Source: an uncultured Hyphomicrobiales bacterium
GTDB taxonomy: Bacteria; Pseudomonadota; Alphaproteobacteria; Rhizobiales; Devosiaceae
Reading direction: 5' to 3'
DNA: 64,000 nucleotides
Assembly: GCA_903828145.1 (NCBI GenBank)
Contig: CAIKKY010000028.1
Span: forward strand, 1-64,000
A model generated the notes under the pieces. It worked only from the letters and a program-made list of their open reading frames with translations, had not been told where the DNA came from and ran no database searches. Both the position numbers and the translations under genes were made by a program. Positions 48,716 through 53,311 of the stretch are shown here, piece by piece. Positions within the stretch are counted from its first letter, which is position 1. The number at the start of each line of letters is the position of its first letter.

Positions 48716-49918
48716 ATGGCATTTCTGTCAGACGCACTCGGGCGCATTCAGCCGTCCGCCACGGTGGCGATTTCGCGCAAGGCCGCCGACATGGCGCGGG
48801 CCGGGCGCGACGTGATTGCACTGGCCGCGGGCGAGCCGGATTTCGATACGCCCCAGAACGTGCGCGAGGCGGCGATCCGTGCCATCAATGCAGGCAAGAC
48901 CCGCTACACCAATGTCGATGGTATTCCCGAGCTGAAAGAGGCAGTGGCCCGCAAATTCCAGCGCGACAACAGTCTGCCGGTTGCGGCCGAGGACTGCTTT
49001 GTGTCGGCGGGCGGCAAGCAGGTGATTTTCAACGCTCTGCTCGCCACACTCAATCCGGGCGATGAGGTGGTGATTCCGGTGCCCTACTGGGTCAGCTATC
49101 CCGAAATCATGCGGCTTTGCGATGCGCAGCCGGTCTATGCGGCCGCGACCGCCGCGACCGGGTTCAAGCTCAGCCCCGAGGCGCTTGAACGGGCGATTTC
49201 GCCCCGGACGAAATGGCTCATTCTCAATTCCCCGTCCAACCCCACAGGGGCCGCCTATAGCGCCGACGAGCTGAAGGGGTTGGCCGCCGTGCTGCTCCGG
49301 CATCCGCAGGTGCATATCCTCACCGACGATATCTATGAGGTGCTGGTTTATGATGGCGGGCGGTTCGCCACGCTGGCTGAAGTCGAACCGACGCTCCGCG
49401 AGCGGACGCTCACCATGAATGGCGTGTCAAAATCCCATGCGATGACGGGTTGGCGCATTGGCTATTGCACAGGGCCCCGGCCGCTGCTTCAGGCCATGCT
49501 CAAACTGCAAAGCCAATCGACCACCAATCCCTCGTCGATTTCGCAATGGGCGGCGGTTGAGGCCCTCGAGGGCCCGCAGGATTTCCTCAAGTCCTGGCGC
49601 GATGTGTTCGAGGAGCGGCGCAATCTGGTGGTGGCGGGGCTCAATGCCGCTCCGGGCCTTGAGTGCCTGACGCCTGAAGGCGCGTTCTATGTGTTTCCTT
49701 CGGTTGCCGGGCTTTTGGGCAAGGTTTCAAAAGGCGGCGCGCGGCTTGAGACCGATGCCGATGTGGTGCTGGCGCTCCTCGAAGAGACCGGCGTCGCGCT
49801 GGTGCATGGCGCCGCTTTCGGGCTGACGGGCCATATGCGGCTCAGCTATGCGGCGGCGACCACTCAGCTGACCGAAGCGGTGGCGCGTATTCAGGATTTT
49901 GCGGCCGGGGTGCGTTGA
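48716..49918 (+). CDS. aatA: Aspartate aminotransferase, class I PLP enzyme
   Basis: 400 residues, fold type I. Active-site features in order: LAAGEPDFDTP, the SPSNPTGAAYS substrate loop, TDDIYEVLVYDG and the PLP lysine in VSKSHAMTGWRIGY. It matches the rhizobial AatA (Ib subgroup), which transfers the amino group between aspartate and 2-oxoglutarate; some relatives also accept aromatic substrates. AGGGAGAG precedes ATG 48716. A bidirectional terminator lies right after the stop. Confidence 0.93.
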   Translation: MAFLSDALGRIQPSATVAISRKAADMARAGRDVIALAAGEPDFDTPQNVREAAIRAINAGKTRYTNVDGIPELKEAVARKFQRDNSLPVAAEDCFVSAGGKQVIFNALLATLNPGDEVVIPVPYWVSYPEIMRLCDAQPVYAAATAATGFKLSPEALERAISPRTKWLILNSPSNPTGAAYSADELKGLAAVLLRHPQVHILTDDIYEVLVYDGGRFATLAEVEPTLRERTLTMNGVSKSHAMTGWRIGYCTGPRPLLQAMLKLQSQSTTNPSSISQWAAVEALEGPQDFLKSWRDVFEERRNLVVAGLNAAPGLECLTPEGAFYVFPSVAGLLGKVSKGGARLETDADVVLALLEETGVALVHGAAFGLTGHMRLSYAAATTQLTEAVARIQDFAAGVR

Positions 49919-49923
49919 GGCAA

Positions 49924-49958
49924 TAAAAAGGCCCCGCTCGAGGGGCGAGCGAGGCCTT
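49924..49958. terminator. Bidirectional terminator (aatA and small RNA A)
   Basis: AAGGCC-CCGCTCG / CGAGCG-A-GGCCTT stem. On the minus strand it is followed by TTTTTA, a full intrinsic terminator for the RNA unit to its right; on the plus strand it ends aatA. Confidence 0.85.
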
Positions 49959-50065
49959 AAGGGACATCACGCCAAAGCGGACCCCGAGCACCAGCAGCCG
50001 AGGAGGGGAGGGGCTGCTGGCTGTGAGAAGCGATCCGGAGGAGGAGGATGGACCGCAATCTCTTG
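49925..50065 (-). ncRNA. Candidate small RNA A with two anti-Shine-Dalgarno loops
   Basis: Read on the minus strand: hairpin 50056-50030 (GCGGUCC/GGAUCGC) presents CCUCCUCCUCC in its loop; hairpin 50020-49991 (perfect CCAGCAGCC/GGCUGCUGG) presents CCUCCCCUCCUC; then the terminator. One pair in the first stem is G-U on the minus strand but A-C on the plus strand, which supports the minus orientation. A promoter-like TTGTGC-N17-GATAAG (50100 to 50072) would start the RNA near 50065. The design (CCUCC loops, then terminator) resembles the alpha-r14/cuckoo RNAs of Alphaproteobacteria. Confidence 0.65.
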
Positions 50066-50071
50066 AGGTCG

Positions 50072-50100
50072 CTTATCGCGCCCGGCGCGCCTTTGCACAA
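50072..50100 (-). promoter_or_regulatory. Promoter candidate of small RNA A
   Basis: Minus strand TTGTGC, 17 bp, GATAAG; placed about 8 bp before the first hairpin region. Confidence 0.35.
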
Positions 50101-50184
50101 ACGCCGATTGCGAACGTCAGCCATGCACTGCCGGAATGGCTTCAGGTGATCCATGCGCCGTAGCGCTGGCCTCGGCCCGATGGC

Positions 50185-50219
50185 AAAAAAAAGAGGCCCC
50201 ATCCCGAGGGATGGAGCCT
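50185..50219 (-). terminator. Terminator of small RNA B
   Basis: AGGCUCCAUCC/GGAUGGGGCCU 11-bp stem with a short loop, then C and eight U on the minus strand. A U-G pair in the stem becomes A-C on the plus strand, again favouring the minus strand. Confidence 0.88.
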
Positions 50220-50379
50220 GTGATCGGATGGAAACATCCAGTCAATAGTGCGGCAAGTGCGCGAGGGAGGAGGAGTTCACGCCTTTGCCTGTGGACCCTG
50301 CCGAGGGAGGAGGAAACGGCCTGATCCGGTTGCCGCAGAACCTGACCGAGGGAGGAGAAACGGTGCGGTTCACATCGAC
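50185..50379 (-). ncRNA. Candidate small RNA B with three anti-Shine-Dalgarno loops
   Basis: The minus strand carries three short hairpins with almost the same loop: ACCG/CGGU (50364-50345, loop UUUCUCCUCCCU), GCCG/CGGC (50320-50300, loop UUUCCUCCUCCCU), and a third around 50278-50258 (GUG/CAC, AACUCCUCCUCCCUCG). A small GGAUG/CAUCC hairpin and the terminator follow. The repeated UCCUCCUCCC would pair with mRNA ribosome sites. Three loops is more than the two usual for alpha-r14 RNAs. The predicted length is about 195 nt. Confidence 0.65.
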
Positions 50380-50385
50380 ACGAGC

Positions 50386-50414
50386 ACTATGATCTTTGAC
50401 CGTTTGGTCAGCAA
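50386..50414 (-). promoter_or_regulatory. Promoter candidate of small RNA B
   Basis: Minus strand TTGCTG, 17 bp, CATAGT, with the first CCUCC hairpin about 20 bp downstream. Confidence 0.4.
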
Positions 50415-50420
50415 TGCTGC

Positions 50421-50436
50421 AGCTAACATATTAGCT
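50421..50436. repeat. Inverted repeat AGCTAA-CATA-TTAGCT
   Basis: Perfect 6-bp arms just upstream of the promoter candidate of small RNA B; a possible operator site. Confidence 0.3.
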
Positions 50437-50510
50437 ATGCACCCGGCGCAGGGTTAGGTCAGGTGTGCTGACCCAGTAACCTGAATAAACCGTTGATTTT
50501 GAAACCGGAA

Positions 50511-50546
50511 AAGACAAAGCCCCGCTCGAGGGGGAGCGGGGCTTTT
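50511..50546. terminator. Terminator of small RNA C
   Basis: AAAGCCCCGCT/AGCGGGGCTTT, a perfect 11-bp stem, followed on the minus strand by GTCTTTT. Confidence 0.8.
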
Positions 50547-50617
50547 GCAATCACTGCTGACTGCGAGAGGAACACAGACCGCGCGAGGAGGAGGAGTGAG
50601 AGCGCGGTTCTATGCTG
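50511..50617 (-). ncRNA. Candidate small RNA C with an anti-Shine-Dalgarno loop
   Basis: On the minus strand, hairpin 50607-50579 (perfect CCGCGC/GCGCGG) presents CUCCUCCUCCUC in its loop. A single-stranded GUUCCUCUCGC follows, then the strong terminator. A weak promoter-like TTGAAG-N16-CTAAGT (50651 to 50624) precedes it. It is the copy nearest lsrB and the shortest of the three. Confidence 0.6.
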
Positions 50618-50811
50618 GCGCTCACTTAGGCGGCCGACCCTTCGGCTTCAACCAAGCACAGGGCATAGCACCTATGCGTCCAGCGCATGGGCGTTAAGTC
50701 TTTGAGAATGAAGGTATAAATAACGTTTCGGTCGTAGGGTGAGGCCGCCCGACGCAGGTGGGCGGGCTGCTCAGCCCCTCTAGCGCAGGGGTCGCTGACC
50801 CCGTGGCCGAC

Positions 50812-51705
50812 TCAGAACTGCCATTCCCGCGCTTTGCCGACGAGGAAATCGCGGAAGACGCCGACGCGCTTTGAGTTCTTGAGCGCGGGCGGATAGACGA
50901 AATAGGCCTCATAGGCTGGCAGCTCGATGGATTCGAGCACGCGGCGCAGGGTCTTTTCGTCCTCGGTCACGTAATCGGGCAGCATGGCGATGCCGATACC
51001 GGCGCGGCAGGCCTGCATCATGCCGTAGATGGCGTTGACCTTCATGGCGGGGCGGCGCGGCGACGAGTCGGGGCGCCCGAGCCGTTCGAGATAGTTGATG
51101 TCGCCAAGGTGCTGCGGCACCGGTTCGCCAAAAGTTATGACCCGATGCTTATCGAGTTCATCGACCGATTTGGGCTCGCCATGCTCGGCAAGATAGCTCG
51201 CCGAGGCGTAGAAGTGATTGTGCACCGTGAACAGCTTGCGCTGGATCATCTCGGACTGGTTGGGCCGGTGGAGCCGGATAGCCACGTCGGCCTCGCGCAT
51301 GGCCAGATCGAGTTCGGCGTCGTTGAGCTTAATCTCGATCTGGATTTCGGGATAAAGCTTCAGAAACTCGTGGATGCGGGAACTGAGCCAGGTCGAGCCG
51401 ATGCCCACAGTAGTGGTGACGAGCAGGGGCCCGGTTGGCACCTCCTGGCTCTCGGACATCTGGGTTTCGACCTGCTGCAGTTCCCAATGCATACGGTGGG
51501 CGGTGCGAAACAATTGCTCGCCCACCTCGGTCAGCACCAGCCCGCGCGCGTGGCGGATGAACAGCTTGAGACCAAGATCCTCTTCCAGCGCCGAAATCTG
51601 GCGCGACACGGCCGACTGGCTCATGTTCAGCTTTTCCGCAGCATGCGTGAAGCTGCCTGACTCGGCGGCGGTGTGGAAGATGCGGAGCTTGTCCCAATCG
51701 AACAT
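50812..51705 (-). CDS. lsrB: LysR family regulator, LsrB/VtlR type
   Basis: 297 residues. N-terminal winged helix (DKLRIFHTAAESGSFTHAAE, then SQSAVSRQISALEEDLG) and a LysR substrate-binding domain. Its place directly behind trxB (3 bp gap) and the strong start MFDWDKLRIFHTAAESGS match LsrB of Sinorhizobium and VtlR of Brucella/Agrobacterium, regulators of oxidative stress, envelope and AbcR small RNAs. It has a single cysteine, Cys232 (MMQACRAG), close to the redox-active Cys238 reported for S. meliloti LsrB. Downstream lies a cluster of GC-rich hairpins without T-run, then the candidate small RNAs. Confidence 0.8.
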   Translation of the reverse strand: MFDWDKLRIFHTAAESGSFTHAAEKLNMSQSAVSRQISALEEDLGLKLFIRHARGLVLTEVGEQLFRTAHRMHWELQQVETQMSESQEVPTGPLLVTTTVGIGSTWLSSRIHEFLKLYPEIQIEIKLNDAELDLAMREADVAIRLHRPNQSEMIQRKLFTVHNHFYASASYLAEHGEPKSVDELDKHRVITFGEPVPQHLGDINYLERLGRPDSSPRRPAMKVNAIYGMMQACRAGIGIAMLPDYVTEDEKTLRRVLESIELPAYEAYFVYPPALKNSKRVGVFRDFLVGKAREWQF

Positions 51706-51708
51706 GGG

Positions 51709-52659
51709 CTATTCCGCCGCTTCGGCAAGCTGATGGGCGGCAAGGAAGCGTTCGGCTTCCAGCGCAGCCATGCAGCCCATGCCGGCCGCAGTGACGGCCT
51801 GCCGGTACACATCATCGGTGACGTCGCCCGCCGCAAAGACGCCGGGAATCGTGGTGGCCGTACCACCGGGCACGACCTTCAGGTAGCCGCCGGCCTTCAT
51901 GTCGAGCTTGCTCTCGAACACCTTGGTCGCGGGCGTATGGCCGATGGCAATGAACACACCGTCCACCCTCTTCTCGGTCACGGTGCCCGAGGCGGTATCG
52001 CGGATGCGGATACCGGTGACGGAGCGCGGAGCCTCGTCGCCAAGAATTTCGGCCACCTCGGCGTTCCAGATCACCTCGATCTTGGGATTTTTGAACAGGC
52101 GGTCCTGCATGATCCGCTCGGCGCGGAATTCGTCGCGACGGTGGATCACGGTCACTTTGCTGGCGAAATTGGTGAGGAACAGCGCTTCCTCAACCGCCGT
52201 ATTGCCGCCCCCCACAACCACGACTTCTTTGCCGCGGTAAAAGAAGCCATCGCAGGTGGCGCAGGCCGATACGCCAAAGCCCTGGAAGCGGTCTTCGGAC
52301 GGCAGGCCGAGCCAGCGCGCCTGGGCGCCGGTGGCGATGATCACGGCATCGGCGGTATAGGTCTTGCCGCTATCGCCCTTGAGCACGAAGGGGCGCCGGT
52401 CGAAATCAACCTCGGTGATGATGTCGTTGACTTCCCTTGTGCCCATATGAAGCGCCTGCGCCTTCATCTGCTCCATGAGCCAGGGGCCCTGAATGGCGTC
52501 GGCAAAGCCGGGGTAGTTTTCCACATCGGTGGTGATGGTCAACTGACCGCCCGGCTGCAACCCGGCAATCATCACCGGTTCGAGCATGGCGCGTGCGGCG
52601 TAGATGGCAGCGGTATAGCCCGCCGGACCCGACCCGATGATAACGACTTTGGCATGCAT
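51709..52659 (-). CDS. trxB: Thioredoxin reductase
   Basis: 316 residues. FAD motif IIGSGPAGYTAAIY, redox pair Cys133-Ala-Thr-Cys136, NADPH motif VVGGGNTAVEEA and C-terminal GVFAAGDVTDDVYRQAVTAAG. It keeps thioredoxin reduced with NADPH. It is the first gene of a two-gene operon with the LsrB-type regulator. Confidence 0.97.
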   Translation of the reverse strand: MHAKVVIIGSGPAGYTAAIYAARAMLEPVMIAGLQPGGQLTITTDVENYPGFADAIQGPWLMEQMKAQALHMGTREVNDIITEVDFDRRPFVLKGDSGKTYTADAVIIATGAQARWLGLPSEDRFQGFGVSACATCDGFFYRGKEVVVVGGGNTAVEEALFLTNFASKVTVIHRRDEFRAERIMQDRLFKNPKIEVIWNAEVAEILGDEAPRSVTGIRIRDTASGTVTEKRVDGVFIAIGHTPATKVFESKLDMKAGGYLKVVPGGTATTIPGVFAAGDVTDDVYRQAVTAAGMGCMAALEAERFLAAHQLAEAAE

Positions 52660-52808: not shown

Positions 52809-53282
52809 TCAGATGAAGCGGACCTCGAGGATCTCGTAACCCCGGGCACCGCCGGGAGCGACCACCTCGATGGAATCGCCGACCTGCTTGCCGATCATGG
52901 CGCGGGCAATGGGCGACGAAATGGAGACGCGACCGGCACTGATATCGGCTTCGGCATCGCCCACGATCTGGTAGAGGCTTTCCTTTTCGGTATCCTCGTC
53001 GATCACGCGGACGGTGGCGCCGAACTTGACCGTGCTGCCCGAGAGCTTGGTGACATCGATCACATCGGCCAGAGCGAGGAGCGTTTCCAGCTCCTTGATG
53101 CGGCCCTCATTGAGGCTCTGCTGCTCCTTGGCGGCCGAATACTCGGCGTTTTCGCTCAGATCGCCATGGGCGCGGGCCTCGGAAATGGCCGCGATGATCG
53201 TCTGGCGATCCTCGGCGGTGCGACGGCGGAATTCCTCGCTCAGCCGCTTATAGCCGGCCGGGGTCATTGGAATCTTATCCAT
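52809..53282 (-). CDS. greA: Transcription elongation factor GreA
   Basis: 157 residues: N-terminal coiled coil with the acidic tip ([16 protein letters not shown]) and a C-terminal FKBP-like domain ([16 protein letters not shown]). It rescues backtracked RNA polymerase. ATG 53282 ([12 protein letters not shown]) follows GGAG by 8 bp. The leader contains a large inverted repeat. Confidence 0.97.
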
Positions 53283-53311
53283 GGCAACGTCTCCAACGCG
53301 CAAAACATAAG

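Follow-up and report, generated by a model that had tools for sequence, protein, structure and literature searches.

Three tandem predicted small RNA genes with anti-Shine-Dalgarno loops beside a vtlR/lsrB ortholog in Devosiaceae

What occupies the gap at positions 49919-50811 of the window, the whole stretch of 64,000 nucleotides of Devosiaceae DNA that was analysed, is the question raised by this locus. The gap is 893 bp long (890 in an earlier note on this DNA) and lies between a convergent aspartate aminotransferase gene on the plus strand (aatA, which scored 511.7 bits with NCBIfam PRK06107.1, under the cutoff of 617) and a LysR-family gene on the minus strand (Table 1). The earlier note had seen no protein gene in it, and Pfam indeed gave no match at E<=0.001 for the two ORFs of at least 70 aa lying wholly inside the gap. 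This result and the covarying stems described below led us to drop a small-protein reading. A tRNA scan of the window found none.

The minus strand of the gap was found to hold three units with one (C), three (B) and two (A) anti-Shine-Dalgarno (aSD) hairpins, each unit being closed by a terminator. Five of the hairpins were located by a script and the sixth, in unit C, was seen by folding, the first script not having allowed its loop of 17 nt; a second script with longer loops and a stricter motif also gave five (C 1, B 3, A 1), missing the second hairpin of unit A. When the gap was shuffled 500 times with its dinucleotides preserved, this second search gave on average 0.03 aSD hairpins and at most 1, versus the 5 observed. 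All three strong terminators belong to the minus strand, and the terminator scan of the gap gave 6 overlapping matches versus a shuffle mean of 0.8. The fold z-scores were -8.1 for unit C, -5.2 for unit A and -4.1 for unit B. The script and the fold thus agree with the regulatory RNA array of six aSD hairpins, with a strong terminator per unit, that the earlier note had described, and the stem pairs that it had found to be G-U on the minus strand only, at two places, are those of hairpin 1 of unit A (GCGGUCC/GGAUCGC) and of SL2 of unit C. A reading without RNA genes, in which these structures are DNA repeats or chance C/T-rich hairpins, can appeal to the low complexity of the aSD motif, but the shuffles, together with the strand bias, covariation and box spacing reported below, make it hardly credible.

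Table 1. Positions in the window of the predicted RNA units, their parts and the flanking genes
Feature	Position	Strand	Basis or remark
aatA, convergent aspartate aminotransferase gene bounding the array	48716-49918	+	PRK06107.1, Pfam Aminotran_1_2; start inferred by eye
Unit A, assigned to type D, 143 nt	49923-50065	-	Start set 61 nt past box
Unit A terminator	49928-49958	-	Close past aatA stop
Unit A aSD hairpins	50030-50056, 49990-50021	-	Script
Predicted VtlR box, unit A	50114-50136	-	Perfect GCAT-N3-TG-N3-T (GCATGGCTGACGT); left half-site TTCC, not TGC
Unit B, predicted alpha-r14-like sRNA, 195 nt	50185-50379	-	Start set 61 nt past box
Unit B terminator	50194-50219	-	
Unit B aSD hairpins	50338-50371, 50293-50327, 50252-50289	-	Script
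Predicted VtlR box, unit B	50428-50450	-	TGCG-N6-GCAT intact
Unit C, predicted AbcR-type sRNA, 108 nt	50509-50616	-	Start set 61 nt past box; end is the T-run
Unit C terminator	50516-50545	-	
Unit C SL2	50547-50564	-	
Unit C aSD2-like linker	~50565-50572	-	
Unit C aSD1 hairpin	50579-50607, outer stem 50572-50615	-	Fold
Predicted unit C core promoter	50624-50651	-	-35 TTGAAG, -10 CTAAGT
Predicted VtlR/LsrB box, unit C	50665-50687	-	TGCG-N6-GCAT; perfect GCAT-N3-TG-N3-T from 50677
vtlR/lsrB ortholog, LysR family, presumed activator	50812-51705	-	Pfam HTH_1 and LysR_substrate
trxB	51709-52659		Upstream of vtlR; NCBIfam cutoffs
greA	52809-53303		Upstream of trxB; NCBIfam cutoffs

The earlier note had missed both the vtlR neighbourhood and the VtlR boxes. 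The gene order trxB-vtlR-abcR1-abcR2 is reported for Agrobacterium (PMC7486931), and the AbcR pair of S. meliloti is reported to adjoin lsrB (PMC8844928); the slot downstream of trxB-vtlR, in which the gap lies, is the AbcR locus of the Hyphomicrobiales (vtlR/lsrB). The VtlR protein of the window has a single cysteine, at residue 233. This residue was the only cysteine in 49 of 80 relatives' loci and 23 had none, so that the three cysteines reported for S. meliloti LsrB are not conserved here.

We then compared the loci of the best 80 vtlR relatives, 70 of which belong to Devosia, Pelagibacterium, Maritalea or Arsenicitalea, all Devosiaceae, the remaining 10 being labelled Rhizobiales, Hyphomicrobiales, Alphaproteobacteria or, once, Phyllobacteriaceae; the window's genome is accordingly most likely that of a Devosia or a near relative. 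A search downstream of vtlR gave one or more strong aSD hairpins on its strand in 73 of the 80 loci; none was seen in L048, L049, L054, L080 and L096, where the downstream DNA spans 31 to 2543 nt, or in L118 and L119, whose vtlR identity is 74 and 73%, respectively. In the 77 sequences with at least 1500 nt past vtlR (76 of the 80 loci and the window), 436 strong aSD hairpins were on vtlR's strand versus 5 on the opposite strand. The hairpin patterns of 75 sequences, listed by our own hairpin script, which is able to miss units, were most often 1-3-3 (15), 3-3 (12), 1-3-1 (8) and 1-3-2 (7); the first unit found had one hairpin in 51 of the 75 and later units mostly had two or three. Loop number therefore varies to a degree among relatives. 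An RF01766 (cspA thermoregulator) match below threshold (48.9 bits for a cutoff of 78) at L083:213-627 is possibly a cspA-like coding region.

Alignments of 34 unit C sequences (A1) and 36 unit B sequences (A2) showed covariation of the stems. In A1, 9 of 13 consensus pairs were changed on both sides, SL2 having been excluded from the counted structure as it failed to align, and in A2 this was the case for 26 of 33 pairs; the covariation score was reached in 0 of 500 shuffles for either unit. The pair cells kept were 96.8% versus 87.7% in shuffles for unit C and 94.5% versus 79.8% for unit B, percentages that lean upward since the RNAalifold structures come from the same alignments, and sliding the partners lowered the paired percentage to 29-48%. 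A weaker covariation measure, with further pair types, was reached by 25 of 500 shuffles for unit B and 8 of 500 for unit C. With this covariation and the 73 of 80 loci, stems and loop motifs are conserved in relatives, and on this point the reading of the earlier note therefore stands.

An LsrB box of the form GCAT-N3-TG-N3-T is reported at -61 to -49 of abcR1 (PMC8844928), and TGCN-N6-GCAT is the reported form of the LsrB site in nfeR1 (PMC10746234). Of 206 units, 117 had an exact box 70-90 nt ahead of the first loop, in 63 of the 75 sequences having any unit, and the other 89 had none at the expected place; the distance from box to loop was 74-83 nt in 112 of the 117. The chance expectation of boxes in place was 0.5 for 197 units, a count that omitted nine one-hairpin groups without a box candidate which the 206 units include. 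The reversed box pattern was found once in 564 kb versus 186 boxes, and TGCN-N6-GCAT was present in 92 of 192 units with a box candidate. In the window, the box of unit B (GCATAGCTAATAT) has one mismatch to GCAT-N3-TG-N3-T. Two exact boxes 28 nt apart, about 108 and about 80 nt before the first loop, precede unit B in L047, L051 and L122, a sequence arrangement that suggests a doubled operator.

Starts were put 61 nt past the box, which in alignments brings TTG near -35 and TATAT or CATAT near -10; since the starts were placed by the box, the -61 spacing is an assumption in Devosiaceae and not a mapped start. A strict sigma-70 pattern scan of the gap gave no promoter, and the promoters proposed there come solely from comparison with relatives. 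For unit C, with its start so assumed, the -35 TTGAAG fits and the -10 CTAAGT is degenerate against the TATAT of relatives; with this -10, the mismatch in the box of unit B and the linker GUUCCU of unit C, the window copies look worn. Fixed-spacing profiles sorted the promoters into four types, with 19 loci for C, 36 each for B and A' and 11 for D. Unit C of the window scored as type C (33.7), unit B as A' or B (49.6 and 39.4, respectively) and unit A as D (41.9, versus 8.5 for C, -11.7 for B and -39.4 for A'), and the window array is on these scores a C unit, a B/A'-type unit and a D unit. Every one of the 11 D loci gave a strong match for unit C as well, and these relatives, at least 11, thus carry four units in the row C-B-A'-D. 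In L072 (10720-10850), L094, L098 and L099, among these 11 loci, type D follows the array as a fourth unit, preceded by a box of its own and with a terminator loop of the CAUCCCCUCGGG type.

From the computed sequence, structure, covariation, boxes and synteny we infer transcription, starts, VtlR binding, base-pairing and targets, and we consider it probable that the gap holds three tandem, separately promoted sRNA genes forming a VtlR-linked aSD array that would act as a translational repressor of uptake and catabolic genes. The units lie on one strand in close tandem order, and a single long precursor, running through from vtlR or from the first promoter, might instead be cut into three RNAs in the manner of Rhodobacter CcsR1-4, RNase E processing being reported for ccaF1-CcsR (PMC10253847). 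We think this improbable, each unit having its own terminator and upstream box and the array having no DUF1127 gene: the two matches to DUF1127 (PF06568) in the window's own genome are on contigs C19 and C29, and the window is C28. Three separately promoted genes remain the reading followed below.

Rfam at gathering thresholds found nothing in the window. At permissive thresholds, RF02344 (alpha-r14) was the best family for all three units, with 31.4, 29.5 and 24.5 bits versus a gathering score of 58.8, and RF02345 (alpha-r15; gathering score 40 bits) matched nothing in the gap, even at E values up to 10, and nothing in the window's own genome. The alpha-r14 kinship asserted in the earlier note, with the covariance-model searches for alpha-r14 and alpha-r15 that it had proposed, was thus upheld as to the nearest family, but at scores far below the cutoff. 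RF02345 was likewise not matched over its cutoff in 41 relatives or in the 5 Devosiaceae genomes among 150 of the order, where matches were sub-cutoff only. This failure is not taken as absence of AbcR because unit C fits by architecture and position. Its first hairpin carries aSD1 in the loop (CUCCUCCUCCUC in the window), and CTCCC or CCTCC occurs within the first 50 nt in 34 of 34 A1 sequences. The M2 motif GUUCCC lies between the first and second hairpins in 28 of the 34 and reads GUUCCU in the window; AbcR RNAs of Brucella are reported to act through motifs M1 and M2.

A model of unit C (R1), whose start inherits the assumed 61-nt box spacing, was trained on 33 loci and the window. Scores of at least 53.8 bits were reached in the window and in 69 of the 77 loci, and thus in 36 of the 44 untrained ones; the window scored 68.8 bits, its own row belonging to the training set. 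A strong match was missing in 8 of the 77 (L049, L053, L054, L055, L058, L110, L118 and L119). The 244 matches listed shared vtlR's strand without exception and, apart from one (L122:3571), lay downstream. At E<=0.001, 121 of 136 Devosiaceae genomes, a set that overlaps the training set, had a match, and in the window's own genome the R1 and RF02344 matches were in the array only, among the best-ranked candidates scored. Outside Devosiaceae R1 was weak (14.5 bits in L026, 13.4 bits in L030 and 22-23 bits on three AbcR genes). R1 and over-cutoff RF02345 matches had common ends within 0.8 kb past vtlR in G093, G128 and G159, both models rewarding aSD loops plus a terminator.

In other families of the order, 29 vtlR loci were compared: 19 had an aSD hairpin no more than about 520 nt downstream and 10 had none in that stretch, though an aSD2-like linker and a box are present in three of these, L160, L163 and L165. 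In the RF02345-matching loci of other families, the parts run from an SL1 whose loop is of the CUCCUCCC type through a linker resembling GCUGUUCCCCUCUGG and SL2 to a terminator, and unit C has them in the same order. Among 14 such loci (5 over cutoff), with the match start fixed by Rfam's model, 7 had an exact box 61-65 nt upstream and 3 had, at -61/-62, a box with one mismatch; 4 had neither. By position and architecture, unit C is the predicted AbcR (alpha-r15) counterpart, though below the Rfam cutoff. In Maritalea, one unit C scored 36.2 bits over its 3' part (L114:2429-2505) with RF00519 (suhB/MmgR; cutoff 41), a family of the same Rfam clan as ar15. In L169 (family f40), three near-identical tandem two-hairpin aSD RNAs have their loops 163-832 nt downstream of vtlR, with TGCR-N6-GCAT before each and no exact GCAT-N3-TG-N3-T box; L029 (f6) has two such tandem RNAs, and L166, L170 and L171 have one such pair.

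Unit B has the three aSD-loop hairpins with variable stems that mark alpha-r14/cuckoo RNAs, and it was the unit that scored 31.4 bits with RF02344. The third hairpin of the RF02344 model has its aSD motif in the terminator loop, from which the motif is absent in the window (AGGCTCCATCCCTCGGGATGGGGCCT). Unit B of another Devosiaceae genome (G150, locus L128) has it there and scored 62.2 bits, above the gathering score. Unit B is alpha-r14/cuckoo-like, at a score below the Rfam cutoff. For unit A, the best Rfam match was RF02344 (24.5 bits, E 0.028, below gathering), and no described Rfam family matched the type D unit above cutoff.

The claim of the earlier note that the units are copies of one RNA with diverged loop number was not sustained, as unit C is AbcR-like, unit B alpha-r14-like and unit A of type D; the variation of hairpin patterns in relatives agrees with its idea of diverging loop number, but the units differ in type by promoter. 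Loop loss by decay was accordingly replaced by unit types after the promoter classification, though hairpin patterns vary among relatives. That all three are alpha-r14/cuckoo copies with drifted loop number would agree with RF02344 as their common best family, with those varying patterns and with the proposal reported from Reinkensmeier 2011 of a single family whose aSD hairpin modules vary in number. The AbcR position, aSD1 hairpin, GUUCCC-type linker and SL2 of unit C, the four promoter types and the fit of unit A to type D make this unlikely. Somewhat less doubtful is a local origin, in which the VtlR-box array exists as described but AbcR gave rise to units B and A by the addition of hairpins, their alpha-r14 likeness being convergent: R1 also scored units A and B of the window (42.5 and 34.8 bits, respectively) and the promoter layout is common to the units, but the G150 unit B, with its aSD in the terminator loop, passes the RF02344 gathering score. 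An array of an AbcR-type, an alpha-r14-like and a type D unit is the reading we prefer.

In S. meliloti, LsrB is reported to activate AbcR1 directly (PMC8844928) and NfeR1 by direct binding (PMC10746234), and RNAs of AbcR1/NfeR1 type are reported to repress translation via aSD motifs (PMC8844928). AbcR1 and NfeR1 being known LsrB targets in Sinorhizobium, the parts and the mechanism are already known. By homology, VtlR, encoded directly upstream on the same strand, would bind the GCAT-N3-TG-N3-T box before each unit and thereby lead to its sigma-70-type transcription. The RNAs, as folded, would present C/U-rich aSD motifs in their hairpin loops and, in unit C, also in the linker; these motifs may pair with G/A-rich ribosome-binding sites and so repress the translation of uptake and catabolic genes. 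In the window's own genome, 13 ORFs have GGGAGGAG 4-11 nt before the ATG versus 5 for the reversed pattern, and the paired GAGGAGGAG pattern had no match there. Ten of the 13 were run on Pfam (L179, L184 and L189 being left out) and 8 had matches at E<=1e-10, namely an ABC ATPase, a solute-binding protein, a lyxose isomerase, GH127, a short-chain dehydrogenase, an epimerase, a nucleotidyl transferase and an aldo/keto reductase. The 13 versus 5 site matches are a hint at an uptake and catabolic target class.

Two sRNA families, which LsrB controls separately in Sinorhizobium, would stand together in one conserved locus beside the gene of the presumed activator. This locus could be used to test whether multi-copy aSD RNAs act as a single regulon, how targets are divided and whether the two families share an origin, and searching by position offers a way to such RNAs where Rfam thresholds miss them. 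We put forward only tentatively that the vtlR locus is a recurrent nursery of aSD sRNAs, where AbcR and alpha-r14 would have arisen or been re-amplified by tandem duplication beside their activator, the Devosiaceae array (C-B-A'-D) being the fullest.

AbcR, alpha-r14, tandem aSD RNAs (CcsR), variable hairpin number and the LsrB control of AbcR1 and NfeR1 are all in print. For the assembly of AbcR and alpha-r14 beside vtlR in Devosiaceae, no description was found in the literature searched, del Val 2012 and Reinkensmeier and Giegerich 2015 lying outside it. CcsR1-4 of Rhodobacter sphaeroides (RF02791, CIN1 locus) are likewise tandem sRNAs with CCUCCUCCC motifs, as judged from the Rfam family name. 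Their reported source is a transcript that also encodes a DUF1127 protein, is driven by one RpoHI/RpoHII promoter and is processed to release them (PMC10253847), whereas each window unit has its own box and terminator, with no DUF1127 gene adjoining. Comparison of unit B with NfeR1/alpha-r14/cuckoo (RF02344) showed several CCUCCUCCC-type hairpin loops and variable stems in both; unit B has three aSD hairpins and a separate terminator without the full motif in about 195 nt (115 nt for NfeR1) and, unlike NfeR1, adjoins an AbcR-type unit and vtlR. In the 150 genomes, no over-cutoff RF02344 match of other families was beside vtlR, and sub-cutoff matches were there in G029, G117, G137 and G165. Unit C resembles AbcR1/AbcR2 (alpha-r15, RF02345) in its position right downstream of vtlR/lsrB, a predicted LsrB box before it, a first hairpin whose loop carries aSD1, the aSD2/M2-type linker, SL2, the terminator and a length of about 108-120 nt (121 and 114 nt are reported for S. 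meliloti AbcR1 and AbcR2, PMC8844928); it differs in the linker (GUUCCC in AbcR, GUUCCU in the window) and in the lack of RF02345 matches over the cutoff in the 41 relatives and the 5 Devosiaceae genomes. The Devosiaceae rows join two known RNA types that elsewhere are mostly apart.
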